From positions 597,079 to 661,078 of the forward strand of contig NZ_LMDC01000023.1 of assembly GCF_001425705.1 (NCBI RefSeq): a DNA stretch of 64,000 nt, given 5' to 3'. The notes beneath the pieces were generated by a model that saw nothing but the letters and a program-made list of their open reading frames with translations, did no database searches and was not told where the DNA came from. How positions within the stretch are numbered: position 1 is the stretch's first letter; the number at the start of each line of letters is the position of its first letter. Source of the stretch: Pelomonas sp. Root1217 (lineage in GTDB: Bacteria; Pseudomonadota; Gammaproteobacteria; Burkholderiales; Burkholderiaceae_C). Made by a program: the position numbers and the translations under genes. This document shows, piece by piece, positions 36,621 through 52,476 of this stretch.

Positions 36621-36742
36621 CTTGAGTCTCCGGGGGTTGAGGGGAAGCGGCGCGCAGGATAGCGGCGCCGTCTCAGCCTTGCAGCCCCCAGGGTGTTGTC
36701 TGCCGTCTGGACACGGCGCCGCGCGGCGAATGGCTGGATTCC

Positions 36743-36765
36743 GGACAGTGCCACCGCAGTGGACA
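36743..36765 (+). promoter_or_regulatory. Candidate activator site upstream of the TonB receptor
   Basis: GGACA-N13-GGACA, first half in the context TTCCGGACAGTGCC, 79 bases before the -24 element. The same spaced pair with a similar flank (TTTCGGACAACGCC) occurs upstream of the second sigma-54 promoter at 40722. Likely binding site for the sigma-54 activator encoded between them; inference. Confidence 0.5.
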
Positions 36766-36821
36766 CCGAAAACGCGGGTGAACCCGCAAGGGTTTGCAGG
36801 TAGTTCGCCCCGACTTGGCGC

Positions 36822-36837
36822 GGGCATGGCTTTTGCG
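36822..36837 (+). promoter_or_regulatory. Sigma-54 promoter of the TonB receptor gene
   Basis: GGGCATG-GCTT-TTGCG matches TGGCAYG-N4-TTGCW with mismatches only at the two ends and has the required 10-base GG-to-GC spacing. The receptor ATG is 43 bases downstream. Confidence 0.7.
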
Positions 36838-36879
36838 CTCCCGCTCCTGGTTCCGAACACAACAACCAGGAGACAAGCC

Positions 36880-39075
36880 ATGACCTCTCGCCACCCGGCA
36901 CGCTCGCGCCTGCAATTCGCCATCCTCGCCACGCTGGGCGCCACGATCGCCCTGCCCGCCGCCGCGCAGACCGTCGCCGCCGCCGAGCCCACGGTGACGA
37001 CGCTGGACGTCGTCAAGGTCACGGCGCGCAAGCGCGAGGAGTCGCTGCAGGACGTGCCGGTCGCCGTCACGGCGCTGACGGCCGACCAGCTCGACAAGCT
37101 GGCCATCAAGGACCTCGGCGACCTGCAGGGCCAGGTGCCCAACCTGACCATCTACGCCGCGCGCGGCAGCAACACGACGCTCACGACCTTCATCCGCGGC
37201 GTCGGCCAGGCCGACCCGCTGTGGGGCGTGGACCCGGGCGTGGGCATCTATTTCGACGACGTCTACATCGCCCGGCCGCAGGGCGCGCTGCTGGATGTGT
37301 ACGACGTGCAGCGCGTGGAAGTGCTGCGCGGCCCGCAGGGCACGCTGTACGGCAAGAACACCATCGGCGGCGCCGTGAAGTACGTGTCCAAGCCGCTGCC
37401 GACGGCGACCGAAGGCTCGGTGACGCTGGCGGTGGGCAACTACGGCCAGGTGACGGCCAAGGGCGGCGTGGGCACGGCGGTCAACGACGGCCAGTTCCGT
37501 TTTCGCGTCGCCGGCGCCAGCCTGAACCGCGAGGGCTACGGCAAGAACCTGACCGACGGCAGCCCCGTGAGCGACCAGGCCACGACCAGCGGCCGCGTAT
37601 CCATGGGCTGGTTCCCGACCGGCTCCAGCTTCAACGCCCAGGTGTCGGTGGACCGCACCAACGACGACTCGCACATGCGCGGCTTCCAGCGCCTGAACGT
37701 CAACGCCTTCGACCCCGCCAAGACGCCGCCGACCACCGGCCGCTACGACATCGCCACCGGCATGCCCAATGCCAACCGCACCAGCAGCGAGGGCGAATCC
37801 CTGACGCTGAACTGGGGCGTCAGCGAGGCCTGGAGCCTGAAGTACATCCTCGCCCACCGCGCCTCGGACACCAACACCTCCATCGACTTCGACGGCCTGC
37901 CCAACAAGATCGCCGACGTGCGCGCCGAATACCACGACAGCTCGCAGAGCCATGAGCTGCAGGCCGTCTACGAAGGCGCCAGCAGCTCGGGCGTGCTCGG
38001 TGTCTATTACTTCGACGGCCGCGCCGGCGGAACGGTGCGAAACAACTTCTTCAACCTGAGCTTCGGCACCACCAACGGCCTGGTCTACACCCAGGGCAAG
38101 GCCGTCTTCGGCGACTGGAGCTGGCGCCTGAGCCCGGCCTTCAGCGTCAGCACCGGCCTGCGCTACACCCAGGAGAAGAAGCGCGCCGTCGTGCTGAACC
38201 AGGCCTTCGCCAACGACCAGTTCAGCGGCAACCCCATCGCCGTGCCGGCCAATTTTGACAAGAGCCTGTCGGTCAGCAACACCTCGCCGCGCCTGTCGCT
38301 CGAGTACAAGGCCAGCAAGGAAATCAAGCTCTACACGACGGCCTCGCGCGGCTTCAAGAGCGGCGGCTACAACATCCGCGCCAACACCGTGGCCTTCCCA
38401 TCCTCGGGCCGGCCCTTCGCCGACGAGAAGCTCGACTCGCTGGAACTGGGCGCCAAGATGATCCTGGACGGCGGCCGGCTGGAGCTGAACACGGCGCTGT
38501 TCCACAACAAGTACAAGAACGTGCAGCTGTCGGTGTTCACCAGCTACACCCAGCCCAATGGCCAGCCCGGCTTCTTCGGCGACTTCACCAACGCCGGCAA
38601 GGCGACGGTGCAGGGCGCCGAGGTCGAGTTCCTGTGGATGCCGACGACATCCTGGCGCATCAGCGGCAACCTGGCCACGCTGGACGCCAAGTACGACGAG
38701 TACTTCGACCGCGGCGTCAACGTGGCCGCCCAGAAGAAGTTCACCAACACGCCGAAGTACCAGGCCAGCCTGAACCTGGAGCACAACGCCAGGCTGGCCA
38801 TGGGAACGCTGCGCTCGCGCCTGGGTGTCACTCATCGCAGCAAGGTCTACCCGACGACCGACCTGTCCGAGTCGCTCGCCCAGGACGCCTACACGCTGGT
38901 GAACGCCGGCCTGATCTGGGAGAAGGACGCCAAGCTGAGTTTCTTCCTGCAGGGCAGCAACCTGACCAACAAGGCCTACAAGACCGACGGCTACAACATC
39001 GCGGCCCTCGGCGTGCTGAACGCCTACTACGGCGCACCCCGCACCTTCACTGTCGGCGGCACGTTCAAGTTCTAA
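36880..39075 (+). CDS. TonB-dependent outer-membrane receptor
   Basis: A 731-residue outer-membrane barrel with signal peptide (IALPAAAQT). The plug domain shows VTARKREESLQDVPVAVTAL, FIRGVGQADPLW and VEVLRGPQGTLYGKNTIGGAV; the barrel ends in the aromatic-terminated strand TVGGTFKF. Receptors of this KREESLQDVP type carry diverse substrates, often not siderophores. The ATG at 36880 has AGGAGA upstream. Expression is probably sigma-54 dependent. It is immediately followed by a sigma-54 activator gene and a Liv-type transporter cluster, suggesting a shared substrate. Confidence 0.93.
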   Translation: MTSRHPARSRLQFAILATLGATIALPAAAQTVAAAEPTVTTLDVVKVTARKREESLQDVPVAVTALTADQLDKLAIKDLGDLQGQVPNLTIYAARGSNTTLTTFIRGVGQADPLWGVDPGVGIYFDDVYIARPQGALLDVYDVQRVEVLRGPQGTLYGKNTIGGAVKYVSKPLPTATEGSVTLAVGNYGQVTAKGGVGTAVNDGQFRFRVAGASLNREGYGKNLTDGSPVSDQATTSGRVSMGWFPTGSSFNAQVSVDRTNDDSHMRGFQRLNVNAFDPAKTPPTTGRYDIATGMPNANRTSSEGESLTLNWGVSEAWSLKYILAHRASDTNTSIDFDGLPNKIADVRAEYHDSSQSHELQAVYEGASSSGVLGVYYFDGRAGGTVRNNFFNLSFGTTNGLVYTQGKAVFGDWSWRLSPAFSVSTGLRYTQEKKRAVVLNQAFANDQFSGNPIAVPANFDKSLSVSNTSPRLSLEYKASKEIKLYTTASRGFKSGGYNIRANTVAFPSSGRPFADEKLDSLELGAKMILDGGRLELNTALFHNKYKNVQLSVFTSYTQPNGQPGFFGDFTNAGKATVQGAEVEFLWMPTTSWRISGNLATLDAKYDEYFDRGVNVAAQKKFTNTPKYQASLNLEHNARLAMGTLRSRLGVTHRSKVYPTTDLSESLAQDAYTLVNAGLIWEKDAKLSFFLQGSNLTNKAYKTDGYNIAALGVLNAYYGAPRTFTVGGTFKF

Positions 39076-39140
39076 GCGTGCGACTGAGCGGTCTCGGCCT
39101 CGCCGAGGGGGCGGGGCCGGCGCGGTACATTGCGCCGGTC

Positions 39141-40637
39141 ATGCCCCTGTCCAAAAACCAGACACCCGCGTCCGCCGGCATCCCGCAGGATGTCGACGGG
39201 CTGCTGCGTCTGGCCGCGCAGTCGATGTTCGACGTGCTGGCGCGGTCGACCGAAGGGATGATGGTCATCGACCGCAACCACCGCGTCGTCTGGATCAGCG
39301 AGGGCTACAAGCGCTTCCTACCGGCGCTGGGCTTCAACGACGAGCACGAGTTCGTCGGCCGCCCGGTCGAGGACGTGGTGCCCAACACGCAGATGCTGCA
39401 GGTGCTCGACACGGGCAAGCCGGTGCTGGTGGACCTGTTGACCAACAAGGCGGGCACCTTCCTCGTCAGCCGCCTGCCGCTGCGCAATGACGCGGGCGAG
39501 GTCATCGGCGCCTTGGGCCTGGTCCTGCTGGACCACCCCGAGACGACGATGCAGCCGCTGATCCAGAAATTCGCGCGGCTGCAGCAGGAGCTGGAGGACA
39601 CGCGGCGCCAGCTCGCCGCGCAGCGCCGGCCCAAGTACACGATCGCCAGCTTCATCGGCGCCAGCCCCGCGGCGCTGGAGGTCAAGCGCCAGGCGCGTCG
39701 CGTGGCGCAGACCGACTCCACCGTGCTGCTGCTCGGCGAGACCGGCACCGGCAAGGAGCTGATGGCCCACGCCATCCACGCCGCATCGCGCCGCGCCCAC
39801 CGGCCGCTGGTCAGCGTCAACATCGCCGCGGTGCCGGACACGCTGCTGGAAGCCGAGTTCTTCGGCGTCGCACCCGGCGCCTATACCGGCGCGGACCGCA
39901 AGGGCCGCGACGGCAAGTTCAAGCTGGCGGATGGCGGCACGCTGTTCCTGGATGAGATCGGCGACATGCCGCTGGCCTTGCAGAGCAAGCTGTTGCGCGT
40001 GCTGCAGGAGCAGGAGGTGGAGCCGCTGGGCAGCAACACGGTGCTGCGCGTGGATGTCCGCGTCATCGCCGCGACCAGCCGCGATCTCGCCGCCATGGTC
40101 GCCGCCGGCCAGTTCCGCGCCGACCTGTACTACCGCCTCAACGTGCTGCCCATCCGCGTGCCGGCCCTGCGCGAGCGGCTGGACGACATCGAGGCCCTGG
40201 CCGAGGCCCTCGGCGAAGACATTGCCCGCCGCAGCGGCATGCCGCAGAAGCTCTTGAGCCCCGACGCCATCGAATGGCTGATGCAGCAGGCCTGGCCCGG
40301 CAATATCCGCGAGCTGAGGAACACGCTGGAGCAGGTGAGCCTGATGAGCGACGACATGCAGCTCACCGCAGCGCATTTCCAGGGCGGTCCGGCCTTGCCG
40401 GCCGCTCCCGCACCCGCACCCAAACCGGCGGCCCCCGCCATGACCACGGCCCACGCCGTCGCCCCCTTGCCCGAGCTGATCGAGGCCCTGGAACGCGACG
40501 CCATCGCCCGCGCGCTGCAGGCGACCGGCGGCAACCGCATGGCGGCAGCGCGGCTGCTGCAGATTTCCCGGGCCTCGCTGTACGAAAGACTGGCGCGCTG
40601 GCCGGACCTGGAAGTCCAGCTTTCGGACAACGCCTGA
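39141..40637 (+). CDS. Sigma-54-dependent transcriptional activator (PAS-AAA-Fis)
   Basis: A 498-residue bacterial enhancer-binding protein. An N-terminal PAS-like sensor (about 25-135) is followed by the AAA+ domain with Walker A GETGTGKE (199-206), sigma-54-contact loop GAYTGA (246-251, a Phe-to-Tyr variant of GAFTGA), Walker B TLFLDEIGD and arginine-finger region. A Pro/Ala linker leads to a Fis-type helix-turn-helix (NRMAAARLLQISRASLYERL). No receiver domain, so it senses a ligand directly. A 7-bp hairpin (39117-39138) ends two bases before the ATG. Sigma-54 promoters lie both upstream and downstream of this gene. Confidence 0.93.
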   Translation: MPLSKNQTPASAGIPQDVDGLLRLAAQSMFDVLARSTEGMMVIDRNHRVVWISEGYKRFLPALGFNDEHEFVGRPVEDVVPNTQMLQVLDTGKPVLVDLLTNKAGTFLVSRLPLRNDAGEVIGALGLVLLDHPETTMQPLIQKFARLQQELEDTRRQLAAQRRPKYTIASFIGASPAALEVKRQARRVAQTDSTVLLLGETGTGKELMAHAIHAASRRAHRPLVSVNIAAVPDTLLEAEFFGVAPGAYTGADRKGRDGKFKLADGGTLFLDEIGDMPLALQSKLLRVLQEQEVEPLGSNTVLRVDVRVIAATSRDLAAMVAAGQFRADLYYRLNVLPIRVPALRERLDDIEALAEALGEDIARRSGMPQKLLSPDAIEWLMQQAWPGNIRELRNTLEQVSLMSDDMQLTAAHFQGGPALPAAPAPAPKPAAPAMTTAHAVAPLPELIEALERDAIARALQATGGNRMAAARLLQISRASLYERLARWPDLEVQLSDNA

Positions 40638-40647
40638 ATTTCGGACA
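40625..40647 (+). promoter_or_regulatory. Candidate activator site upstream of the transporter cluster
   Basis: GGACA-N13-GGACA in TTTCGGACAACGCC...TTTCGGACAC, straddling the stop codon of the activator gene and 97 bases before the -24 element. Same half-site, same 18-base period and same orientation as the pair at 36743-36765. Confidence 0.5.
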
Positions 40648-40721
40648 CTCCGCCCGTCCCTAACGGCCAAAAACCTCGGGACAACCCGAACGAATTCTGC
40701 CGCCGGCGACCCTTCCCCGCC

Positions 40722-40737
40722 GGGCACGGCCCTTGCA
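40722..40737 (+). promoter_or_regulatory. Sigma-54 promoter of the transporter cluster
   Basis: GGGCACG-GCCC-TTGCA fits TGGCACG-N4-TTGCA except for the first base. The first transporter gene starts 60 bases downstream after a good ribosome site (AGGAGA). Confidence 0.8.
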
Positions 40738-40797
40738 AAAAGGGAAGACACCGTCTGCCGACAGGGCAGGCCTGACGAACTTCAGGAGACAAGCCCC

Positions 40798-41997
40798 ATG
40801 CGCCTCACCACGCGCCGCTTTGCCATCGCCGCCGCCACCGTCGCGGTCGCCCTGCCCGGCCTCGCCCTGGCTGCCGGCAACGAGATCCGCATCGCCCACG
40901 TCTACAGCAAGACCGGCCCGCTGGAGGCCTACGGCAAGCAGACGCAGACCGGCTTCATGATGGGCCTGGACTACGCCACCGGCGGCACCATGACGGTGGC
41001 GGGCAAGAAGCTCGTCGTCATCGAGAAGGACGACCAGGGCAAGCCCGACGTGGGCAAGAGCCTGCTGGCCGCGGCCTATGGCGACGACAAGGCCGACATC
41101 GCCGTCGGGCCGTCGTCCAGCGGCGTGGCGCTGGCCATGCTGCCGGTGGCCGAGGAGTACAAGAAGATCCTGCTGGTGGAGCCGGCCGTGGCCGACTCCA
41201 TCACCGGCGACAAGTGGAACAAGTACATCTTCCGCACTGGCCGCAACTCGTCGCAGGACGCCATCGGCAACGCCGTCGCTTCCGACATTGCCGGCTTGAA
41301 CATCGGCATCCTGGCCCAAGACTACGCCTTCGGCCGCGATGCCGTGAAGGCCTACAAGGAAGCGCTGAAGAAGGCCAGGATCGTCCACGAGGAATACCTG
41401 CCCACGGCGACGACGGACTTCACCGCGGGCATCCAGCGCCTGGTGGACGCACTCAAGGACAAGCAGGGCCCCAAGGTCATTGCCGTCGTGTGGGCAGGCG
41501 CCACGCCGCCCTTCGGCGCGCTGGCCGCGCTGGACCTGCAAAAGCGCTACGGCATCGGCGTGGGCAGCGGCGGCAACATCCTGCCGGCCATGACGGCCTA
41601 CAAGCAGTTTCCGGGCATGGAAGGCGCGACCTACTACTACTTCGGCATCCCGAAGAACCCGGTCAACGAATGGCTGGTGGCCAACCACTACAAGCAGTTC
41701 AAGCAGCCGCCCGATTTCTTCACGGCCGGCGGCATGAGCGCGGCGATTGCGCTGGTGGAAGCGCTGAAGAAGATCGGCGGCGACACCACGACCAACAAGC
41801 TCATAAAGACCATGGAAGGCATGAGCTTCGAGACGCCCAAGGGCAAGATGACCTTCCGCGCCGAAGACCACCAGGCGATGCAGTCGATGTATCACTTCCG
41901 CATCAAGGTGGACCCGGCCTTCCCGTGGGGCGTGCCGGAGTTGGTGCGAGAGATCAAACCCGAAGAGATGCAGGTTCCGATCAGGAACAAGCGCTAA
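40798..41997 (+). CDS. Liv-type ABC transporter substrate-binding protein 1
   Basis: A 399-residue periplasmic binding protein (Peripla_BP_6/leucine-binding fold). It has a Tat-like or Sec signal (TTRRFAIAAATVAV...LALAAG), then IRIAHVYSKTGPLEAYGKQ at the start of lobe 1 and AVGPSSSGVALAMLPVAEEY, a typical ligand-loop region. It captures a small carboxylate, amino acid or aromatic acid; exact ligand unknown. First gene of the cluster and directly under the sigma-54 promoter. Confidence 0.92.
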   Translation: MRLTTRRFAIAAATVAVALPGLALAAGNEIRIAHVYSKTGPLEAYGKQTQTGFMMGLDYATGGTMTVAGKKLVVIEKDDQGKPDVGKSLLAAAYGDDKADIAVGPSSSGVALAMLPVAEEYKKILLVEPAVADSITGDKWNKYIFRTGRNSSQDAIGNAVASDIAGLNIGILAQDYAFGRDAVKAYKEALKKARIVHEEYLPTATTDFTAGIQRLVDALKDKQGPKVIAVVWAGATPPFGALAALDLQKRYGIGVGSGGNILPAMTAYKQFPGMEGATYYYFGIPKNPVNEWLVANHYKQFKQPPDFFTAGGMSAAIALVEALKKIGGDTTTNKLIKTMEGMSFETPKGKMTFRAEDHQAMQSMYHFRIKVDPAFPWGVPELVREIKPEEMQVPIRNKR

Positions 41998-42014
41998 GAC
42001 CGCCAAGTCAAAAG

Positions 42015-42092
42015 GCAACCACAGAGGCACGGAGACACAGAGGAAGCGCTCCGTGTCGGCAGTTCTCCGTACCTCTGTGCCTCCGTGGTTGC
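42015..42092 (+). repeat. Palindromic CACAGAG repeat, copy C1
   Basis: A 78-bp imperfect palindrome: the left arm begins GCAACCACAGAGGCACGGAG and the right arm ends with its near-complement CTCCGTGGTTGC, about 28 bases each with a few mismatches. It fills most of the gap between the binding protein and the first ATPase. The flank outside the right arm is ATTTCCTT. Copy C2 at 50512-50593 is in the opposite orientation. Confidence 0.85.
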
Positions 42093-42108
42093 ATTTCCTT
42101 CCCAGTCC

Positions 42109-42852
42109 ATGCTCGAAACCAAGAATCTGACGATCCGCTTCGGTGGCCATGTGGCCGTCGCTGGCGTGTCGTGCGCCTTCCAGCCCGGCACGCTGACGGC
42201 CATCGTCGGACCCAACGGTGCCGGCAAGACGACCTACTTCAACCTGATCTCGGGCCAGCTGCCCGCGAGCAGCGGCGAGGTGTGGCTGGACGGTGAGAAC
42301 CTGACCAGGCTGCCGGCGCCGGTGCGCACGCGCCGTGGCCTGGGGCGGGCCTTCCAGCTGACACAGCTGTTCGCGCACCTGACCGTGCTGGAGAACGTGC
42401 GGCTGGCGGTGCAGGCACGGCGCGGCAAGGGGCTGCGCATGCTGTCGGTGTGGCTGTCTCACAAGGAGCTGATCGACGAGGCCCGCGCCATCCTCGACCG
42501 CGTGCGCCTGGGTTCGCGTGCCGATGACTTCGCGGCCAGCCTGCCGCATGGCGACCAGCGCAAGCTCGAGGTGGCCATGCTGATCGCGCTGGATCCCAAG
42601 GTCTACCTGTTCGACGAGCCGACCGCTGGCATGAGCGTGGACGAGGTGCCCGTCGTGCTGGACCTGATCCGCGCGCTGAAGGCGGAGAAGAAGCACACGC
42701 TGCTGCTGGTGGAACACAAGATGGACGTCGTGCGCGAGCTGGCCGACCGCATCATCGTCTTGCACCAGGGCAAGCTGGTGGCCGACGGCGACCCGGCGAC
42801 GGTGATCGCGTCGCCTATCGTGCAAGAGGCCTACCTGGGGGTTGCGGCATGA
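42109..42852 (+). CDS. Liv-type ABC transporter ATPase LivG-like 1
   Basis: A 247-residue ABC ATPase. Walker A GPNGAGKT, Q-loop in FQLTQLFAHLTV, a signature region degenerate to LPHGDQRKLE (LSGGQ is usual; LivG proteins often have LSYGxQR), Walker B VYLFDEPTAG and switch His in LLVEHKMD. The ATG at 42109 is just outside repeat C1; a GTG inside the repeat was rejected. Ends with a 4-bp ATGA overlap with the next ATPase. Confidence 0.93.
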   Translation: MLETKNLTIRFGGHVAVAGVSCAFQPGTLTAIVGPNGAGKTTYFNLISGQLPASSGEVWLDGENLTRLPAPVRTRRGLGRAFQLTQLFAHLTVLENVRLAVQARRGKGLRMLSVWLSHKELIDEARAILDRVRLGSRADDFAASLPHGDQRKLEVAMLIALDPKVYLFDEPTAGMSVDEVPVVLDLIRALKAEKKHTLLLVEHKMDVVRELADRIIVLHQGKLVADGDPATVIASPIVQEAYLGVAA

Positions 42853-43583
42853 ACTTGCTCGAACTGAAGGGCGTCCACACCCACGTCGGGGCGTATCACA
42901 TCCTGCATGGCGTCGACCTCGAAGTGCCCGCTGGCCAGGTGACCATGCTGCTGGGCCGCAATGGCGCGGGCAAGACGAGCACCTTGCGCACGCTGATGGG
43001 CCTGTGGACGGCCAGCAGCGGCTCGGTGTGGTTCAAGGGCGAAGAGATCACGAAGCTGGCCACGCCTGACATCGCCTCGCGCGGCATTGCCTATGTGCCC
43101 GAGACCATGGGCATCTTCGGCGAGCTCAGCGTGGCGGAGAACCTGCTGCTGGCCGCCCGCTCGGCCAAACGGTTGGCGGATCTGGATGCGCAGCGGCTGG
43201 ATTGGCTGTTCGGTTTGTTCCCTGCGTTGAAGACGTTCTGGCAGCACCCGGCGGGCAAGTTGTCGGGTGGGCAGAAGCAGATGCTCGCCATCGCGCGCGC
43301 CATGATCGAACCGCGGGAGCTGTTGGTCATCGACGAACCCAGCAAGGGCCTGGCGCCGGCCATCGTGCAGAACCTCATCACGGCGCTGCGGGAGTTGAAG
43401 AAGACGTCGCAGGCGACGGTGCTGCTGGTGGAGCAGAACTTTCGGGTGGCGGCTGAGCTGGGCGATTCGGTCGCGGTGATGGATGACGGAAGGATCGTGC
43501 ATCGCGGGGCGATGCGAGAGTTGATCGAGGACGCGGCGCTGCAGCAGCGGTTGCTGGGGTTGTCGTTGGGAGCGCATCAATGA
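42849..43583 (+). CDS. Liv-type ABC transporter ATPase LivF-like 1
   Basis: A 244-residue ABC ATPase with Walker A GRNGAGKT, YVPETMGIFGELSV (Q-loop region), signature LSGGQKQML, Walker B LLVIDEPSKGLAP and VLLVEQNF (H-loop replaced by Gln, normal for LivF). It pairs with the LivG-like subunit it overlaps. Followed by a 603-bp gap filled by repeat B1. Confidence 0.94.
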   Translation: MNLLELKGVHTHVGAYHILHGVDLEVPAGQVTMLLGRNGAGKTSTLRTLMGLWTASSGSVWFKGEEITKLATPDIASRGIAYVPETMGIFGELSVAENLLLAARSAKRLADLDAQRLDWLFGLFPALKTFWQHPAGKLSGGQKQMLAIARAMIEPRELLVIDEPSKGLAPAIVQNLITALRELKKTSQATVLLVEQNFRVAAELGDSVAVMDDGRIVHRGAMRELIEDAALQQRLLGLSLGAHQ

Positions 43584-43624
43584 TCTGGGTCGCTCTTGCG
43601 AAGAGCCTCTCGACTCGTTGCAGT

Positions 43625-44145
43625 GAGCCGGGAGCCCGCCCCGGCAGGGCGGGTAACTTTTCTCTGACGCGCCAGAGAAAAGTCACCAAAAGAGGAGCGC
43701 TCAACGCAATCCGCACTCGAGCAGCGGCATGCGTTCGCGTTGCTCGGACTGGAGTACGCCCCCAAGCGACCCGCTGCGCTCTCGCTGCTGTCCCTGTGAA
43801 GAGAACCATCCATCGCCCCTTCACGCCGGTTAACGCCGGCTGCACGCCGCGCTCATCAGGAAATGCCAAACGGCCGCGTCGCCCGAGCGACGCTGCATTC
43901 GGTTTTGCTCGTGAGCACGGCGTGCAGCCGCGCGTCGGACGGGCTGATGGTGCGATGGATGCTGCTCGTGACAAGTCAGACGCGAGAGCGCAGCGGTTCG
44001 CTTCTTGTCGAAATGCCAGCGGCTGTTTTCGCGCGCCGCTCCTCGCGGCGCCGCGATCGTGTGCGGTTCAGGGCCTCTTCTTTGGTGACTTTCTTCTGGC
44101 CCCGCAGAAGAAAGTTACCCGGCCGCCGGGACGGACTCCCGGGAA
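43625..44145. repeat. Composite palindromic element B1
   Basis: Two roughly 250-bp halves in inverted orientation fill the LivF1-LivH1 gap. Each half is capped by a 14-bp hairpin: GTAACTTTTCTCTG...CAGAGAAAAGTCAC at 43653-43686 and GTGACTTTCTTCTG...CAGAAGAAAGTTAC at 44085-44118. Further inside are GC-rich stretches shared with B2 (47951-48515), which runs in the opposite direction. Open frames across it give chance proteins (LVTFFWPRRRK type) and are not genes. It would interrupt or attenuate the operon. Confidence 0.85.
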
Positions 44146-44186
44146 GCACATGCTCCGCCAAAGCAACCCACGCGAGTAGCGAGCCC

Positions 44187-45161
44187 ATGAAACTCGACCC
44201 CCGCCCCCTCGCACTGCTGGCAGCAATCATGCTTCTAGCCCTGCCCCTCACCGGCAGCCCCAGCACCTGGCTCAACCTGACGCTGGCCGGCATCGCCATG
44301 GGCTTGATCATCTTCGTCATCGCCTCCGGCCTGACGCTGGTCTTCGGCCTGATGGACGTCCTCAATTTCGGCCACGGCGTCTTCATCGCCCTCGGCGCAT
44401 TCACGGCCACCACGGTGCTGGCAGCCCTCGCCCCCTGGGCCACCTCCCCCGACGCCGCCACCAATCTCGCCGCCCTGGCAGCCGCCTGCACAGCCGGCAT
44501 GGCCGTCGCCGCCGCCGTAGGTGTCGTCTTCGAGCGCGTGCTCGTGCGCCCCGTCTACGGCCAGCACCTCAAGCAGATCCTCATCACCATGGGCGGCATG
44601 ATCATCGGCGAGGAGCTGATCAAGGCCACCTGGGGCGCGCAACTGATCCCGCTGCCGCTGCCCGATGCACTGCGCGGCATCTTCCTTTTTGGCGATGTCG
44701 CGGTCGAGAAGTTCCGCGTGCTGTCCATGGTCATCGGCCTGGTCGTGCTGGTCGGCCTGCTGCTCGTGCTGAACCGCACCAAGATCGGCCTGCTCATCCG
44801 CGCCGGCGTGCAGGACCGCGAGATGGTCGAGGCGTTGGGCTACCGCGTGCGGCGCCTCTTCGTCGGTGTGTTCGTCGCCGGCGCCGCGCTGGCCGGGCTG
44901 GGCGGCGTGCTGTGGGGCCTTGTGCAGCAAGGCGTCACGCCGCAGATCGGCGCGCAGGTGAACCTGCTGCTCTTCATCGTCATCATCATTGGCGGCCTCG
45001 GCTCGACCGTCGGCTGCCTCATCGGTGCGCTGCTGGTCGGTCTGGTGGCCAACTACGCCGGCTTCATCGCACCCAAGGCCGCGCTGTTCTCCAACATCGG
45101 GCTGATGGTCGCCATCCTGCTGTGGCGCCCGCAAGGCCTCTACCCGGTGGGCGCCAAATGA
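44187..45161 (+). CDS. Liv-type ABC transporter permease LivH-like 1
   Basis: A 324-residue permease with about eight membrane helices. GLTLVFGLMDVLNFGHGVFIALGAF is the LivH hallmark region, and IIGGLGSTVGCLIGALLVGL the conserved C-terminal loop. It has a longer Ala-rich segment (about 75-115) than most. Its stop overlaps the LivM start by 4 bp. Confidence 0.93.
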   Translation: MKLDPRPLALLAAIMLLALPLTGSPSTWLNLTLAGIAMGLIIFVIASGLTLVFGLMDVLNFGHGVFIALGAFTATTVLAALAPWATSPDAATNLAALAAACTAGMAVAAAVGVVFERVLVRPVYGQHLKQILITMGGMIIGEELIKATWGAQLIPLPLPDALRGIFLFGDVAVEKFRVLSMVIGLVVLVGLLLVLNRTKIGLLIRAGVQDREMVEALGYRVRRLFVGVFVAGAALAGLGGVLWGLVQQGVTPQIGAQVNLLLFIVIIIGGLGSTVGCLIGALLVGLVANYAGFIAPKAALFSNIGLMVAILLWRPQGLYPVGAK

Positions 45162-46240
45162 TCCGCGCGCTGCTTTCGCATGACCTGCCGCGCAGCCGCA
45201 TCCTCGGCGCGCTGCTGGTCGCCTGCTTCGTCGGCCTGCTCGGCGCGCCCTTCATCTTCCCGGGCACCCAGGCGCTGAACGTCGCGGCCAAGATCCTGGT
45301 CTTCATCCTGCTCGTCGCCAGCTATGACCTGCTGCTTGGCTACACCGGCATCGTCAGCTTCGCGCACACGATGTTCGTCGGCATCGGCGCCTACGGCATC
45401 GCCATCGCGTCGACGCGGCTGGGGTCGGACTGGACATCTCTGGGCATCGGCTTCATCGCCGCCCTCGCACTCAGTGCCGTGCTGGCGCTGGCCATGGGCC
45501 TGGCCAGCCTGCGCGTGAAGGCGATCTTCTTCGCGATGATCACGCTCGCCGTGGCTTCGGCCTTCATGACGCTGGCTTCGCAGCTCTCCGAATTCACCGG
45601 CGGCGAGGACGGGCTGAACTTCCAGCTGCCTGCCGCGCTGCGGCCCTCGACGGAGTTCATGGAAGAGCCTGTCCTCGGCGTCATGCTCGACGGCCGGCTG
45701 CTGACCTACTACCTGCTCTTTGTCGCGGTGACGCTGTTGATCGCGCTGCTGCTGCGCATCGTCAACTCGCCGTTCGGCCGCGTGCTGCAGGCCATCCGCG
45801 AAAACGAGTTCCGCGCCGAGGCCATCGGCTACCGCACCGTCATCTATCGCACCGGCGCCAACATCGTCGCGGCCCTGCTGGCCTGCTGCGGCGGCGCCTT
45901 GCTGGCCTTGTGGCTGCGCTACACCGGCCCGGAAACGGCCATGAGCATGGAGATCATGCTGGACCTGCTGCTCATCGTCGTCATCGGTGGCATGGGCACG
46001 GTCTATGGCGCGGTCATCGGCAGCGTGCTCTTCATCGTCGCGCAGAACTACCTGCAGGCGCTGCTCAAGGCGGCAGGCTCGCTCGTCGATGGCGTGCCCG
46101 TGTTGAGCACCCTGGTCTCGCCCGACCGCTGGCTGCTGTGGCTGGGCCTGCTTTTCGTGCTGGCGGTCTACCACTTCCCGGGCGGCATCGTCGGGCGGCT
46201 GCGGCTGGGCGCATGGACGCGCGGGAGAGCGAAAAAATGA
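45158..46240 (+). CDS. Liv-type ABC transporter permease LivM-like 1
   Basis: A 360-residue permease of about nine or ten helices. LLLGYTGIVSFAHTMFVGIGAY, FTGGEDGLNF and IRENEFRAEAIGY are standard LivM blocks. It forms the channel with LivH-like 1. The last bases (ATGA) overlap the hydrolase start. Confidence 0.93.
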   Translation: MIRALLSHDLPRSRILGALLVACFVGLLGAPFIFPGTQALNVAAKILVFILLVASYDLLLGYTGIVSFAHTMFVGIGAYGIAIASTRLGSDWTSLGIGFIAALALSAVLALAMGLASLRVKAIFFAMITLAVASAFMTLASQLSEFTGGEDGLNFQLPAALRPSTEFMEEPVLGVMLDGRLLTYYLLFVAVTLLIALLLRIVNSPFGRVLQAIRENEFRAEAIGYRTVIYRTGANIVAALLACCGGALLALWLRYTGPETAMSMEIMLDLLLIVVIGGMGTVYGAVIGSVLFIVAQNYLQALLKAAGSLVDGVPVLSTLVSPDRWLLWLGLLFVLAVYHFPGGIVGRLRLGAWTRGRAKK

Positions 46241-47079
46241 GATCGCGCTATGTCAACTGCCTGGGTCGCGAGATCCATGTCACCGAGTGGGGCGACCCGG
46301 CCGCACCGCCGGTCATCGCCTGGCACGGGCTCGCACGCAACAGCCGGGACTTCGACGAATTCGCGGCGGCGCTCAGCGCACGCTGGCACGTCGTTTGCCC
46401 GGACACGCCCGGCCGCGGCCTGTCGCAATGGGCGATCGACCCGGCGCGCGAGTACTGCCTGGAGTTCTATGTCGAACAAGCCGAAGCGCTGCTGGACCAA
46501 CTGGGCCTGGACAAGGTTCATTGGGTCGGCACCTCCATGGGCGGCGCCATCGGCACGCTCGGTGCCGCCACGCGCCTGCGCAACCGCATCCGCCGCCTGG
46601 TGCTGAACGACAACGGGCCTGAGCTGGCCGCCACGGCGCTGGCACGCATCCAGAGCTATGCCGGCCAACCGCCAAGCTTCGTGACGGTCAGCGAACTGGA
46701 AGCCTATTTCCGCGAGATCTACGCCAGCTTCGGTCATCTGTCCGATTCGCAGTGGCGCCACCTCACGGAAACCTCGCTGCGCCGCCTGCCCGACGGCCGC
46801 GTGACGCCCCATTACGACCCGGCGCTGGTGCAGCAGTTCGAGCATCACCCCGACGACTACGCGTTGTGGAGCGCCTGGGACGAGCTCGACCTGCCCGTGC
46901 TGTGCCTGCGCGGCGAGGACTCGACCTTGCTGACCGCCGAGACCGCGCAAGCCATGCGCGAGCGCGGCCCGCGCGCGGCCGTGGCGCTCATTCCCGGCTG
47001 CGGCCATGCCCCGGCGCTCAACACGCCCGAGCAGATCGGGCTCATCGAGCGCTTCCTCGCCGCCGGGCAAACCCCGTGA
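46237..47079 (+). CDS. Alpha/beta hydrolase inside the transporter cluster
   Basis: A 280-residue cytoplasmic alpha/beta-hydrolase. Oxyanion-hole HGLARNSRDF, nucleophile Ser in VGTSMGGAIG, acid in LRGEDSTLL, His in PGCGHAPAL. GGAGAG lies before the ATG at 46237, which overlaps the LivM stop by 4 bp, so it is made together with the permeases. It may hydrolyse the imported compound (an ester, lactone or ring-cleavage product), which would hint at the substrate class. Confidence 0.9.
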   Translation: MRSRYVNCLGREIHVTEWGDPAAPPVIAWHGLARNSRDFDEFAAALSARWHVVCPDTPGRGLSQWAIDPAREYCLEFYVEQAEALLDQLGLDKVHWVGTSMGGAIGTLGAATRLRNRIRRLVLNDNGPELAATALARIQSYAGQPPSFVTVSELEAYFREIYASFGHLSDSQWRHLTETSLRRLPDGRVTPHYDPALVQQFEHHPDDYALWSAWDELDLPVLCLRGEDSTLLTAETAQAMRERGPRAAVALIPGCGHAPALNTPEQIGLIERFLAAGQTP

Positions 47080-47139
47080 ATGCCCGTAAGCCAGCGTCAG
47101 GCTTGAAGGCCTAGAGTCGCGCAGCCAACCCAGACGTCC

Positions 47140-47910
47140 ATGAGCGAATACATCCTCGAGACCCAGGACCTGACCAAGGAGTTCAAGGGCTTCACCGCCG
47201 TGGACTCGGTGAACCTGCAAGTGCAGCGCGGCCACATCCACGCGCTGCTCGGACCCAACGGCGCGGGCAAGACCACCTGCTTCAACCTGCTGACCAAGTT
47301 CCTGACGCCGACACGCGGGCGCATCGTCTTCGCCGGCACCGACATCACCGGCGAGAGCTCGGCCCAAATCGCACGCCGCGGCGTCATCCGGTCCTTCCAG
47401 ATCTCCGCCGTCTTCCCGCACCTGACGGTGCTGGAGAACGTGCGTATCGGCCTGCAGCGCTTCACCGGCACGAGCTTCCATTTCTGGAAGGGGTTGACGG
47501 GACTGAAGACCTTGGACGCCAAAGTGTTGTCGCTGCTGGAGCTGGTCGACCTGCGCGACATGGCCCAGTTGAAGGCTGCGGATCTGCCCTATGGCCGCAA
47601 GCGGGCTTTGGAGATTGCGACCACGATGGCGATGGAGCCGCAGCTGATGCTGCTGGATGAGCCGACCCAGGGCATGGGGCATGAGGACGTGGACCGCGTG
47701 ACGGCCTTGATCAAGCGCGTGGCCGAAGGGCGCACGGTGCTGATGGTGGAGCACAACATGAAGGTGGTGGCCAGCATCGCGGATCGCATCACAGTGTTGG
47801 CTCGTGGTGCTGTCTTGGCGGAAGGCGACTACGCGACGGTGTCCAAGGATCCGGCGGTGTTGGAGGCGTACATGGGCACCGAGGCGACTGAGTTGGTGGG
47901 GGCGCATTGA
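47140..47910 (+). CDS. Liv-type ABC transporter ATPase LivG-like 2
   Basis: A 256-residue ABC ATPase: Walker A GPNGAGKT, Q-loop IRSFQISAVFPHLTV, signature-like LPYGRKRALE, Walker B LMLLDEPTQGM and LMVEHNMK. It probably belongs to the second transporter with LivF-like 2, although repeat B2 (643-bp gap) separates them. Not close in sequence to LivG-like 1, so the two sets are not a recent duplication. Confidence 0.93.
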   Translation: MSEYILETQDLTKEFKGFTAVDSVNLQVQRGHIHALLGPNGAGKTTCFNLLTKFLTPTRGRIVFAGTDITGESSAQIARRGVIRSFQISAVFPHLTVLENVRIGLQRFTGTSFHFWKGLTGLKTLDAKVLSLLELVDLRDMAQLKAADLPYGRKRALEIATTMAMEPQLMLLDEPTQGMGHEDVDRVTALIKRVAEGRTVLMVEHNMKVVASIADRITVLARGAVLAEGDYATVSKDPAVLEAYMGTEATELVGAH

Positions 47911-47950
47911 CGATGGTTGCCCGCTCGGTGCTTCTGCTTGGTGGCCGGTG

Positions 47951-48515
47951 TCGTGCCGGGAGTCCCGCCCGGCGGCGGGGTAACTTTCTTCTGCGGGGCC
48001 AGAAGAAAGTCACCAAAGAAGAGGCCCTGAACCGCACACGACCGCGACGCCGCCATGAGCGGCGCGCGAAAACATTCGTCGGGGACGGCTCGACGAAGCG
48101 AACCGCTGCGCTCTCGCGTCTGACTTGTGACGAACGCGCTCCCTCGCCACACATGCCCGTCCGACGCGCGGCTGCACGCCGTGCTCACCAAAACAGCCCA
48201 ATGCAGCGCCGCTCGGGCGGCGCGGCCGAGCAGCACTTCCGGTGCCGTCGCCCCAGCGACGCAGCAATTCCTGATGAGCCCGGCGTGCAGCCGGCGTTAA
48301 GCGGGGAGGTGGTGCGATGGCTGGTGCTCGTCACAGGGACAGCAGCGAGAGCGCAGCGGGTCGCGTCTGCCCGAAATGAAGCTGAGCGTTTTCGCGCGCC
48401 GTTGTCGGCGGCGTGGTACTCGCGTGCGGTTCAGGGCCTCTTCTTTGGTGACTTTCTTCTGGCCCCGCAGAAGAAAGTTACCCCGCCGCCGGGCGGGACT
48501 CCCGGCAATCTCCCG
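47951..48515. repeat. Composite palindromic element B2 (inverted relative of B1)
   Basis: Same plan as B1: two inverted halves capped by hairpins GTAACTTTCTTCTG...CAGAAGAAAGTCAC (47980-48013) and GTGACTTTCTTCTG...CAGAAGAAAGTTAC (48448-48481). The left half best matches the reverse complement of the right half of B1, and the right half the reverse complement of the left half of B1, so B2 is B1 turned round. It fills the LivG2-LivF2 gap. No gene seen in it. Confidence 0.85.
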
Positions 48516-48553
48516 ATGAGCAGCTGGCTCCGCTGAGCAAGCCAACAAAACCC

Positions 48554-49267
48554 ATGGCCACCCCAGCCCTCGAAATCACCAACCTCCACGCCTGGTACGG
48601 CGAAAGCCACATCCTGCACGGCATCAACCTCAGCGTGCAGCCCGGCCAGGTCATCACCCTGCTCGGCCGCAACGGCGCCGGCCGCACCACCACGCTGCGC
48701 GCCATCATGGGTTTGACGGGCGCACGAAAAGGCTCCATCAAGGTCCATGGTGAAGAGACCATCAACCTCTCCACCCACCGCATCGCCAACCTCGGCATCG
48801 GCTACTGCCCCGAGGAGCGCGGCATCTTCGCCAGCCTGACGACCGAAGAGAACCTGCGCCTGCCGCCGCTGCTCAAGAGCCGGCGCGGCAAGGTCATGAG
48901 CGAGACCGAGATCTACGCGATGTTCCCCAACCTCGCGGAGCGGCGCAGCAGCCCCGGCACGCGGCTGTCCGGCGGCGAGCAGCAGATGCTGGCCGTGGCG
49001 CGCATCCTGCGCACCGGCGCCGACATCCTGTTGCTGGACGAGATCTCCGAAGGCCTGGCCCCCGTCATCGTTCAGGCCCTGGCGCGCATGATCAAGGCGC
49101 TGAAAGCCCAGGGCTTCACCATCGTCATGGTGGAGCAGAACTTTCGCTTCGCCGCGCCGCTGGCCGACCATTTCATCGTCATCGAGCACGGCGAAGTCGT
49201 GCTGTCCTTCCCCGCCGCCGACCTGCCGGCCCACCAGGCCAAGATGGACGAGCTGCTCAGCGTCTAA
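48554..49267 (+). CDS. Liv-type ABC transporter ATPase LivF-like 2 (Arg in Walker A)
   Basis: A 237-residue ABC ATPase. Walker A reads GRNGAGRTTT: the catalytic Lys is replaced by Arg (codon CGC). Other motifs are normal: YCPEERGIFASLT, signature LSGGEQQML, Walker B ILLLDEISEGLAP, VMVEQNF. I recall the same Arg in other Burkholderiales LivF proteins, so it may be a tolerated lineage variant and not damage. It pairs with LivG-like 2. Confidence 0.92.
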   Translation: MATPALEITNLHAWYGESHILHGINLSVQPGQVITLLGRNGAGRTTTLRAIMGLTGARKGSIKVHGEETINLSTHRIANLGIGYCPEERGIFASLTTEENLRLPPLLKSRRGKVMSETEIYAMFPNLAERRSSPGTRLSGGEQQMLAVARILRTGADILLLDEISEGLAPVIVQALARMIKALKAQGFTIVMVEQNFRFAAPLADHFIVIEHGEVVLSFPAADLPAHQAKMDELLSV

Positions 49268-49291
49268 CCCGACAACACACTGGAGACAACC

Positions 49292-50488
49292 ATGAAGAAG
49301 ACTCTCATCGCCACCGCTCTCGCCACCTGCGGTTTTGCTGCCCAGGCCCAGATCTCCGGTGACGTCATCAGGATCGGCTTCCTGACCGACATGTCCAGCG
49401 TCTATGCCGACATCGACGGCGCCGGCGGTGTCGAGGCCATCAAGATGGCCATCGCCGACCTCAAGGGCATGACGGCTGGCAAGAAGGTCGAGCTGATCTT
49501 TGCCGACCACCAGAACAAGGCCGACGTCGCCTCGGCCAAGGCGCGCGAATGGATGGACACCCAAGGCCTGGACCTGCTGGTGGGCGGCACCAACTCCGGC
49601 GTCAACCTCGCCATCGCGACCGTCGCGGCCGAAAAGAAGAAGCCGTTCATCTCCATCGGCGCCGGCAGCTCCGCGCTGACCAATGCCAATTGCACGCCCT
49701 ACACCATCCACTACGCCTACGACACCGTGGCCCTGGCCAACGGCACCGGCGGCGCTGTGACCAAGGCCGGTGGCAAGAGCTGGTACTTCCTGACCGCTGA
49801 CTACGCCTTCGGTGCGGCGCTGCAGGCCGACACCACGGCGGTTGTGCAAAAGAGCGGCGGCACGGTCAAAGGCAGCGTCAAGCACCCGCTGAACGCGAGT
49901 GACTTCTCCAGCTTCCTGCTGCAGGCGCAGGGCTCGGGCGCGCAGATCCTCGGCCTGGCCAACGCGGGCGGCGACACGATCAACACCATCAAGGCCGCCA
50001 ACGAGTTCGGTATCACCAAGACCATGAAGCTCGCCGGCCTGCTGATGTTCATCAACGATGTGCACTCCCTGGGCCTGAAGACCACCGAAGGCATGTACCT
50101 GACCGACTCCTGGTACTGGAACCAGAGCCCCGAGGCGCGTGCCTGGAGCCGCCGCTTCTTCGACAAGATGAAGCGCATGCCCTCGTCGCTTCAGGCTGCG
50201 GACTATTCGGCCGTGACCCACTACCTGAAGGCCGTCGACGCCACCAAGACCGACGACGCCGACAAGGTCATGGCCAAGATGAAGGACACGCCGATCAACG
50301 ACTTCTACACCAAGGGCACCATCCGCAAGGAAGACGGCCGCGGCATCCACGACATGTTCCTGATGCAGGTGAAGTCGGTGAAGGAATCGACCGAGCCCTG
50401 GGACTACTACAAGGTCGTGACGCGCATCCCCGGCGAAGAGGCGTTCACAAAGCTGGCCGATTCCAAGTGCCCGCTCGTCAAGAAGTGA
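49292..50488 (+). CDS. Liv-type ABC transporter substrate-binding protein 2
   Basis: A 398-residue periplasmic binding protein with signal peptide (ATCGFAAQAQ). Lobe 1 begins IRIGFLTDMSSVYADIDG; ligand-region motifs include GGTNSGVNLAIATVAAEKKK and SSALTNANCTPYTIHYAYD. This SSVYADIDG type is common in Betaproteobacteria and often linked to aromatic or organic acids. GGAG precedes the start. It is only distantly similar to binding protein 1. Confidence 0.92.
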   Translation: MKKTLIATALATCGFAAQAQISGDVIRIGFLTDMSSVYADIDGAGGVEAIKMAIADLKGMTAGKKVELIFADHQNKADVASAKAREWMDTQGLDLLVGGTNSGVNLAIATVAAEKKKPFISIGAGSSALTNANCTPYTIHYAYDTVALANGTGGAVTKAGGKSWYFLTADYAFGAALQADTTAVVQKSGGTVKGSVKHPLNASDFSSFLLQAQGSGAQILGLANAGGDTINTIKAANEFGITKTMKLAGLLMFINDVHSLGLKTTEGMYLTDSWYWNQSPEARAWSRRFFDKMKRMPSSLQAADYSAVTHYLKAVDATKTDDADKVMAKMKDTPINDFYTKGTIRKEDGRGIHDMFLMQVKSVKESTEPWDYYKVVTRIPGEEAFTKLADSKCPLVKK

Positions 50489-50511
50489 TCGGCTGACTGG
50501 CATGAGGAAAT

Positions 50512-50593
50512 GCAACCACAGAGACACAGAGGCACAGAGAACGGCCTTTGACTCTTTTGTATTTCCTCCGTGTCTCTGTGCCTCTGTGGTTGC
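50512..50593 (-). repeat. Palindromic CACAGAG repeat, copy C2 (inverted relative of C1)
   Basis: An 82-bp palindrome with arms GCAACCACAGAGACACAGAG... and ...CTCTGTGGTTGC, in the gap between binding protein 2 and LivH-like 2. Outside the left arm is AGGAAAT and outside the right CTTTG, the reverse of the C1 flanks, so the two copies face opposite ways. Loop sequences differ. Confidence 0.85.
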
Positions 50594-50611
50594 CTTTGAA
50601 ACTGACGCCTC

Positions 50612-51499
50612 ATGACCGAGTTGTTTGGAATCCCGCTGCCGGCCCTCCTGGGCCAGCTGCTGCTCGGCCTGGTCAACGGCTCGTTCTACGCGATGCTGTC
50701 GCTGGGCCTGGCGGTCATCTTCGGCATGCTCAACATCATCAACTTCGCCCACGGGGCGCTGTACATGATGGGGGCCTTCTTCGCCTGGATGGGGCTGGAA
50801 TACCTGGGCCTGAACTACTGGCTCATGCTCGGTCTCGCGCCGCTCGCGGTCGGCCTCATCGGCATCGTCATCGAGCGCACGATGCTGCAGTGGCTCTACA
50901 AGCTGGACCACCTCTACGGCCTGCTGCTGACCTTCGGCATCACCCTCGTCATCGAGGGCGTGTTCCGCTCGGTCTACGGCGTCTCGGGCCAGCCCTACCA
51001 GGTGCCCGAGGCGCTGCAGGGCGCCACCAACCTCGGCTTCATGATCCTGCCCAACTACCGGGCCTGGGTCGTCGTCGCCTCGCTCATCGTCTGCTTCGCG
51101 GTCTGGGCGCTGATCGAGAAGACCTCGCTGGGCGCCAAGCTGCGCGCCGGCACCGAGAACCCCAAGCTCGTTCAGGCCTTCGGCATCAACGTCCCGGCCA
51201 TGGTCACGCTGACCTATGCCGGCGGCGTGGCGCTGGCGGCCTTTGCCGGCGTGCTGGCCGCGCCCATCCTGCAGGTGTCGGCGCTGATGGGCACCAACCT
51301 CATCATCGTGGTGTTCGCCGTGGTGGTGATCGGCGGCATGGGCTCCATCCTCGGCTCCATCCTGACCGGCCTGGGTCTCGGCATCGTCGAAGGGCTGACC
51401 AAGGTGATCTACCCCGAGGCGTCCAACACGGTCGTGTTCGTCGTCATGGCCATCGTGCTGCTCGTCCGACCGGCCGGCCTGTTCGGCAAAGAGAAATGA
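50612..51499 (+). CDS. Liv-type ABC transporter permease LivH-like 2
   Basis: A 295-residue permease of about eight helices with NGSFYAMLSLGLAVIFGMLN and NFAHGALYMMGAFFAW (LivH signature) and VVVIGGMGSILGSILTGL. Four-base overlap with LivM-like 2. Preceded by repeat C2, whose right arm ends 18 bp before the start. Confidence 0.93.
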   Translation: MTELFGIPLPALLGQLLLGLVNGSFYAMLSLGLAVIFGMLNIINFAHGALYMMGAFFAWMGLEYLGLNYWLMLGLAPLAVGLIGIVIERTMLQWLYKLDHLYGLLLTFGITLVIEGVFRSVYGVSGQPYQVPEALQGATNLGFMILPNYRAWVVVASLIVCFAVWALIEKTSLGAKLRAGTENPKLVQAFGINVPAMVTLTYAGGVALAAFAGVLAAPILQVSALMGTNLIIVVFAVVVIGGMGSILGSILTGLGLGIVEGLTKVIYPEASNTVVFVVMAIVLLVRPAGLFGKEK

Positions 51500-52476
51500 A
51501 CAAGAAGCTCATCGGCTATGCCGCGCTTTTCATCGGCATCGCGCTGCTGCCGCTGCTCGGCGTCTACCCCGTCTTCGTGATGAAGGTGCTGTGCTACGCC
51601 CTCTTCGCCTGCGCCTTCAACCTGCTGGTGGGCTTCACCGGCCTGCTGTCTTTCGGCCATGCGGCCTTCCTCGGCACGGCCGCCTATGTGACCGGCCATG
51701 CACTCAAGGTCTGGGGCCTGCCGACGCCGGTGGGCATCCTCGTCGGCGTGGGCGGCGCGGCCGCCGTGGGCCTGCTGTTCGGCCTGCTGGCCATCCGCCG
51801 CTCGGGCATCTACTTCTCGATGATCACGCTGGCGCTGGCGCAGATGCTGTACTTCTTCTTCCTGCAGGCGCCCTTCACCGGCGGGGAAGACGGCCTGCAG
51901 TCGGTGCCGCGCGGCAGCTTCCTGGGCCTGCACCTGGAGAACGACCTGGTGCTGTTCTACGTCGTGCTGGGCATCTTCATCGCCGCCTTCTGGCTGATCT
52001 ACCGCATCGTGCACTCGCCGTTCGGCCAGGTGCTGACCTCGATCCGCGAGAACGAGGCACGCGCCACCTCCCTGGGCTATGACACCGGCCACTTCAAGCT
52101 GCTGGCCTTCGTGCTGTCGGCGGCGCTGGCCGGTCTGGCCGGCTCCACCAAAACGCTGGTACTGGGCTTCGCCACGCTGACCGATGCGATCTGGACCACG
52201 TCGGGCCTCGTCATCCTGATGACGCTGGTGGGCGGCATGGGCACGCTGGTCGGCCCCATGGTGGGCGCGCTGGTCATCATCGCGCTGGAGAACAAGATCG
52301 GCGACTTCGGCAATTGGCTGGGCGAGCTGACCGGCGTGGCCTGGTTCAACAGCCTGGGCGAATCGGTCAGCCTGGTCACCGGGCTGATCTTCATCGTCTG
52401 CGTGCTGGCGTTCAGGCGCGGGCTGGTGGGTGAGGCGATGGCGTTGCTGGAGCGCAAGCCGAAGCCTTCTTCCTGA
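51496..52476 (+). CDS. Liv-type ABC transporter permease LivM-like 2
   Basis: A 326-residue permease with LLVGFTGLLSFGHAAFLGTAAY, FTGGEDGLQSV and IRENEARATSLGYD, standard LivM features. Last gene of the cluster. Its final 65 bp overlap the 3' end of the convergent EamA gene. Confidence 0.93.
   Translation: MNKKLIGYAALFIGIALLPLLGVYPVFVMKVLCYALFACAFNLLVGFTGLLSFGHAAFLGTAAYVTGHALKVWGLPTPVGILVGVGGAAAVGLLFGLLAIRRSGIYFSMITLALAQMLYFFFLQAPFTGGEDGLQSVPRGSFLGLHLENDLVLFYVVLGIFIAAFWLIYRIVHSPFGQVLTSIRENEARATSLGYDTGHFKLLAFVLSAALAGLAGSTKTLVLGFATLTDAIWTTSGLVILMTLVGGMGTLVGPMVGALVIIALENKIGDFGNWLGELTGVAWFNSLGESVSLVTGLIFIVCVLAFRRGLVGEAMALLERKPKPSS

Follow-up and report, generated by a model that had tools for sequence, protein, structure and literature searches.

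A sigma-54-dependent activator tied to the use of 3-hydroxybutyrate (3HB) has been described in Pseudomonas aeruginosa, where, as far as the accessible text of these papers tells, PA2005 is an RpoN-dependent activator of (R)-3-hydroxybutyrate metabolism (2015, PMC4806590; cited in PMC13390443 and PMC4894688). The locus analyzed here likewise encodes a sigma-54 activator that would be tied to 3HB use; compared with PA2005 as portrayed in that text, the targets of its regulon are transporters, a receptor and a hydrolase. Liv/HAAT-type ABC transporters, such as those with the substrate-binding proteins 3n0x and 3nnd, share the Peripla_BP_6, BPD_transp_2 and BCA_ABC_TP_C domains with this locus, whereas the transporter found here has a sigma-54 promoter, a coupled alpha/beta hydrolase and a receptor joined to it by a shared operator. 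The extracellular PHB depolymerases and 3HB-oligomer hydrolases known from Burkholderiales-type bacteria are encoded inside the same operon in relatives; in contrast, neither enzyme had a match in the genome studied here, whose regulon includes a TonB receptor. A literature search, in which subscription journals were mostly outside coverage, found no paper on this regulon or on the regulation of PHB-fragment uptake.

From comparison with related sequences, we consider it likely that this locus is a local sigma-54 regulon for the capture of PHB breakdown products, whose PAS-type activator senses a 3HB compound. In the proposed mechanism, the activator would bind 17-bp palindromes (TGTCTGAANTTCAGACA), the principal one having its centre some 83 bp before the -24 element, and the activator's N-terminal domain would sense 3HB or an oligomer. 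The activated protein would then drive RNA polymerase-sigma-54 at two promoters, one leading to a TonB-dependent receptor and the other to a binding protein, a Liv-type ABC transporter and an alpha/beta hydrolase. Through an additional palindrome at the beginning of its own gene, the activator would probably restrain its own expression. In many relatives, a PHB depolymerase or a 3HB-oligomer hydrolase is encoded in this operon as well. A widespread activator, against which no NCBIfam model scored over its cut-off, would thereby be matched with an operator, with a set of targets and with a probable substrate. How the uptake of PHB fragments is regulated, as part of the turnover of bioplastics and storage polymers, becomes testable.

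Genes of the locus and the activator

The receptor, the activator, the Liv-type operon and a second Liv-type set (to 52476) all lie on the + strand of the window, i.e. the whole stretch of 64,000 nucleotides that was analyzed (Table 1). The sequence-only reading had listed a TonB receptor, two inner-membrane transporters and a hydrolase, and had placed an activator gene with GAYTGA and a Fis-type helix-turn-helix (HTH) between two promoters; all of these assignments were confirmed by translation or Pfam, the transporters as Liv-type ABC gene sets and the hydrolase as one of the alpha/beta type.

Table 1. Coordinates of genes, -24/-12 promoters and operator copies in the window
Feature	Position	Strand	Support
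Upstream operator copy of receptor promoter, TGTCTGCCGTCTGGACA, -125 from -24 box	36697..36713	.	5 mismatches; rank 4 of 63,984
Operator, receptor promoter, main copy TGGCTGGATTCCGGACA, -91	36731..36747	.	Rank 3 of 63,984
-24/-12 promoter of TonB-receptor gene, GGGCATGGCTTTTGC	36822..36836	+	
TonB-dependent receptor, 731 aa	36880..39075	+	Pfam TonB_dep_Rec_b-barrel and Plug over cut-off
Activator, 498 aa, with PAS-like N-terminus, GAYTGA-containing AAA+ sigma-54 domain and Fis HTH	39141..40637	+	Pfam
Operator copy over activator codons three to eight, TGTCCAAAAACCAGACA	39148..39164	.	Rank 2 of 63,984
Weak upstream operator copy of transporter promoter, AGTCCAGCTTTCGGACA, -109	40613..40629	.	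6 mismatches; rank 12 of 63,984
Operator, transporter promoter, main copy CGCCTGAATTTCGGACA, -91	40631..40647	.	Rank 1 of 63,984
-24/-12 promoter of transporter operon, GGGCACGGCCCTTGC	40722..40736	+	
Periplasmic substrate-binding protein 1 (SBP1)	40798..41997	+	Peripla_BP_6
Two Liv-type ABC ATPases	42085..43583	+	
Two Liv-type permeases	44187..46240	+	BPD_transp_2 in each
Alpha/beta hydrolase, 280 aa	46237..47079	+	Abhydrolase_1; final gene of conserved operon
Second Liv-type set, encoding ATPases, a binding protein and two permeases	47140..52476	+	Candidate regulon member

The central domain of the activator matches PF00158 (E 1.5e-68), with GAYTGA in the translation in agreement with the GAxTGA loop of sigma-54 activators, and its C-terminus matches HTH_8 (PF02954, E 1.5e-11, over the cut-off), a Fis-type HTH; AAA_lid_14 is also over its Pfam cut-off. 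At the N-terminus, PAS_4 scored 22.6 bits, just under the cut-off of 23.1, and residues 20-126 match the histidine kinase 5fq1 (E 3.8e-8) and the CitA PAS domain 8bjp (E 5.2e-8) in the PDB. Matches to the activator at E <= 1e-60 were found in at least 245 of 250 genomes of the family, many of them being paralogues. The window's genome has sigma-54: two matches to its DNA-binding domain were found (G000:C23:446402 and G000:C1:344639; L206 and L207), apparently two rpoN genes.

Among the transporter genes, the ATPase at 42085-42852 contains ABC_tran and BCA_ABC_TP_C (Pfam), and that at 42849-43583 was assigned from its translation and conserved place. The PDB relatives of SBP1 are 3n0x (E 1.2e-161) and 3nnd (E 3.7e-154), for which the PDB listing names no ligand. 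The alpha/beta hydrolase may be a cytoplasmic hydrolase of 3HB dimers or oligomers, or of another ester; a perfect -24/-12 consensus (TGGCACG-N4-TTGC) occurs inside its gene (46384-46398). The genes translated at 36880-52476 do not include a 3HB-dehydrogenase gene. In the gap between receptor and activator, the predicted RNA fold had a z of -2.3.

The second transporter was assigned by Pfam for one ATPase, the binding protein and one permease and from translations for its other genes, and it also adjoins in the congeners L031 and L033 and partly in Paucibacter (L076). Two repeat-bearing gaps (43584-44186 and 47911-48553) lie among the transporter genes, both with common inverted repeats of 101-146 nt (83-94% complementary) and with terminator-like hairpins, at 43634 and 47962; the transcription unit may be split there. 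With these gaps interrupting the cluster, the second transporter is a candidate member of the same transcription unit.

A conserved palindrome upstream of sigma-54 promoters

We compared 69 loci (the window plus sets of 40, eight and 20), which were picked by rank among the matches listed and are mutually related, not independent; seven loci with no SBP1 in the fetched stretch were dropped, leaving 62 with the window included. Within the window, matches to the -24/-12 consensus with up to two mismatches are no commoner than expected by chance (33 versus 42.4), so the two promoters, with two mismatches for the receptor element and one for the Liv element, rest on conservation. A -24/-12 element was present within 230 bp in 62 of the 62 SBP1 loci (100 shuffles: mean 4.4, maximum 10), and the transporter promoter is identical across three congeners. 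Both promoters lie where the sequence-only reading had put them and are conserved in relatives.

By reading the intergenic sequences of relatives, we found that the conserved element upstream of these promoters is the 17-bp palindrome given above. At first look, it was present with up to 5 mismatches of 16 in 19 of 20 upstream regions, two of which are the window's own (300 shuffles: mean 1.2, maximum 5). With thresholds for motif and promoter that were fixed after the first alignments had been seen, as were our own score cut-offs of 12.5, 13.4 and 15, a palindrome upstream together with a -24/-12 element was detected in 56 of the 62 SBP1 loci, against a mean of 0.16 and a maximum of 2 in dinucleotide shuffles. 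The other six (L040, L047, L053, L059, L060 and L066) had no palindrome with 5 or fewer mismatches. Counted from the -24 box, sites in relatives are concentrated around -67, -91 and -110, with -108 to -111 as a recurrent position. Often a promoter has two or three of them, at spacings of 17 to 36 bp; a perfect copy is found in L039.

The receptor promoters exhibited the same arrangement. Among 14 receptor orthologues (12 loci, including the window, plus L054 and L076), all 14 have a -24/-12 element and a palindrome with at most 5 mismatches, which none of 200 shuffle runs produced, and in 12 the palindrome has at most 4 mismatches. Targets with -24/-12 elements (62/62) and distal upstream sites (56/62; 14/14) are thus found at both kinds of promoter, as is characteristic of sigma-54 activators. 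In six genomes, the receptor gene is unlinked to the activator yet has the operator, being located on another contig in G028 and about 25 to 112 kb off in G154, G236, G206, G111 and G007. That unlinked receptors have the operator too is an argument for the operator, rather than simple proximity, as what joins receptor and transporter. The earlier claim of a shared sigma-54 operator for the two promoters is upheld, with conservation in the bacterial family, and has a wider reach than had been proposed.

The window's own copies are imperfect, with 3-6 mismatches. When a symmetric weight matrix was built from 106 promoter sites outside this genus, which were picked with a consensus written from alignments that included the window, the copies at 40631, 39148, 36731 and 36697 ranked first to fourth among all 63,984 window positions. 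Both main copies are positioned at exactly -91 from the -24 box; that of the transporter promoter overlaps the activator stop codon and is also found at -91 in the congeners L032 and L033, and the receptor 17-mer at -91 has 4, 6, 4 and 4 mismatches in the window and three congeners. The upstream receptor copy has a counterpart at -125 or -124 in three congeners (5, 6 and 6 mismatches). Near the activator start, sites scoring 15 or more were found at 7 of the 69 loci (shuffles: mean 0.02, maximum 1), and the copy is absent from the congener L031. Self-repression is common among activators of this kind, and the position of the copy in the window makes autoregulation possible.

The likely substrate and the receptor

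The operon order in relatives is SBP1-LivG-LivF-permease-permease-hydrolase. Of the 69 fetched stretches, 36 contain the whole set, and some of the stretches are too short to do so. A PHB depolymerase gene lies between SBP1 and LivG in 15 of the 69 loci (tblastn homologues at least 45% identical to a single reference sequence, a threshold that excludes L050, where the fetched stretch breaks off within such a gene), and Esterase_PHB with fn3 domains (PF10503 with fn3) was seen in the depolymerases of L047 and L057. In 9 of the 69 loci, a homologue of the 3HB-oligomer hydrolase PF10605 follows the permeases. No operator of their own was detected within 600 bp of 14 of the 15 depolymerase genes (L040, where the contig ends inside the gene, was left out) or of the nine oligomer hydrolase genes, with the exception of one 5-mismatch 17-mer far upstream in L039; -24/-12-like matches (12.8-13.4) occur at three of the nine oligomer hydrolases.

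A homologue of the activator with about 51-52% identity is found in Pseudomonas (L080, the sole Pseudomonas locus whose neighbours were scanned), and three frames follow it. The first, of 463 aa, had no NCBIfam match at 1e-20; the others encode a 3-hydroxybutyrate dehydrogenase and an acetoacetate-CoA ligase, both scoring over curated cut-offs. This homologue may correspond to PA2005 (HbcR). By eye, the gaps of L080 and L082 contain GTCTC-N6-GAGAC-like repeats, as against the GTCTG-N5-CAGAC form of the operator described here. The contexts in Delftia (L077) and Paraburkholderia (L079) gave no clear hint of a substrate. Given the PHB enzymes in the operon of relatives, the 3HB neighbours in Pseudomonas and PA2005, we infer that 3HB, or oligomers of it, is what the activator senses and the transporter takes up.

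Because neither the operon-type PHB depolymerase (at E <= 1e-40) nor the PF10605 oligomer hydrolase had a match in the window's genome, the case for this substrate comes from relatives, and the substrate may have changed here. The four genomes of this genus all have the receptor, and neither enzyme was detected in them. The search for a PHB depolymerase at other places in the window's genome gave four Esterase_PHB matches, of which the two strong ones were read; each lies in a 358-aa frame that we take for a cytoplasmic-type esterase, and such a depolymerase was not retained. Operator searches of the genome found none near any of the four.

It is accordingly worth weighing whether the same regulon and operator serve another short hydroxy acid, fatty acid or ester here, with the PHB enzymes as later additions to a general carboxylate-uptake operon. 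The absence of both enzymes from the window's genome fits this alternative, as does the greater frequency of the whole transporter-hydrolase set (36 of 69) than of the depolymerase (15) or the oligomer hydrolase (9), several loci being too short. However, two unrelated PHB enzymes joined the operon at two fixed places, with no operators of their own in the copies examined, and the Pseudomonas homologue stands beside 3HB-catabolism genes; we therefore regard another substrate as unlikely and retain 3HB or its oligomers as the preferred one. In six loci (L034, L035, L036, L038, L042 and L055), a chemoreceptor gene lies between the activator and SBP1 (Cache-HAMP-MCP in L034, homologues in the other five), which suggests chemotaxis toward the same compound.

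We further compared the distribution of the receptor with that of the PHB enzymes in 60 genomes. A receptor match of at least 64% identity was found in 13 genomes (the window's own included), a depolymerase of at least 55% identity in 19 and the oligomer hydrolase PF10605 in 26 (weak in G198, in pieces in G104). Receptor and depolymerase together occurred in none of the 60, G021 having only a weak 38% match, and receptor and oligomer hydrolase together only in G160. The overlap of one shared genome in 60 has a hypergeometric probability of 0.0001, and by genus one of 41 is shared with about 3.7 expected (P 0.026); both tests ignore phylogeny and leave out G021, which would add a second shared genome and genus. 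One may tentatively suppose, with a good deal of doubt, that the TonB receptor, as an energised outer-membrane importer, replaced the PHB-digesting enzymes in this clade and takes in 3HB oligomers that neighbours release, under the operator shared with the inner-membrane transporter. If true, these bacteria would be scavengers of the PHB digestion of others and the receptor the first candidate TonB route for polyester fragments; the near-exclusion makes a division of labour between digesters and scavengers testable. The best PDB relative of the receptor is the pesticin receptor, and its PDB relatives do not tell the ligand. In L043 and L063, a TonB receptor of a different kind (57% identical to each other) lies between the activator and SBP1, with no operator upstream; L043 comes from G212, a genome with both PHB enzymes.

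Recognition of the operator and extent of the regulon

A regulator other than the adjacent activator might bind the palindromes, with the activator working elsewhere, and the seven of the 69 activator loci that show no SBP1 in the fetched stretch would agree with this. Against it, the site occurs upstream of -24/-12 elements at recurrent distances next to the gene for this activator. In some genomes a site is found at the start of the activator gene too, and Fis-type HTHs bind palindromes as dimers. A different regulator thus appears highly improbable, and binding by the activator encoded at the locus remains the preferred interpretation.

The sequence-only reading had proposed another form for the shared site, a direct repeat GGACA-N13-GGACA. 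Exact copies do exist at both promoters with the same period (36743-36765 and 40625-40647), and a third is found in the window at 13908. The repeat is not a conserved unit, however: the scan of orthologues that the reading called for found it in 3 of 76 orthologous promoters (W_SBP, L193_TB, which is the window's receptor promoter, and L065), two of which are the window's own. The orthologous promoters of the congeners are without it, and in L032, where the gap before SBP1 is 161 bp as in the window, there is no GGACA at all from 60 bp before to 400 bp past the activator end. The pairing of half-sites, given as 79 and 97 bases upstream, was also wrong, in that GGACAs at -79/-61 before the receptor had been paired with those at -97/-79 before the Liv cluster. 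The GGACA at -79, the sole equivalent one of both promoters, is the right half of the palindrome at -91. Palindromes account in this manner for three of the window's four GGACAs, and the 17-mer at the second receptor GGACA (36761) ranks 358th of 63,984. Recognition of direct repeats by the activator, despite their exact match and common period at the two window promoters, therefore deserves next to no credence, the repeat being confined to 3 of 76 orthologous promoters and in the whole genome only somewhat commoner than its reversed control (28 places versus 19), whereas the palindrome is conserved and explains three of the four GGACAs. We accordingly dropped GGACA-N13-GGACA as an operator; what stands is a shared sigma-54 operator that connects import across the outer and the inner membrane, and the site first proposed was wrong in form.

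We also searched whole genomes for the palindrome. When up to 3 mismatches were allowed, the consensus had three matches in the window's genome, of which one is at this locus, and the reversed control had one; weaker sites escape such a search, as the receptor's own sites did. The degenerate pattern YGNCYGRANTYCRGNCR, which was written after both window sites had been seen, had two matches genome-wide, exactly at both promoters (reversed control: five). In 12 related genomes, 11 of 15 places with up to 2 mismatches were at this locus (control: two).

Off-locus copies were not retained as further targets. All six examined (L155, L157, L171, L164, L158 and L172) overlap open frames of at least 130 aa, and none has a -24/-12 element scoring 13 or more within 300 bp. 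The description of the regulon as self-contained is for the most part right, since good copies elsewhere are few and coincide with open frames, though three of the six have weak -24/-12-like matches within 300 bp (12.5 on the minus strand for L155 and L171; 12.8 for L158) that reach 12.5, the cut-off used for SBP1. One of these copies, GGTCTCAAGTTCAGACA (L155 and L171), has the same sequence in the window's genome as in a congener; it lies where two open frames meet and could possibly be a weak further target.
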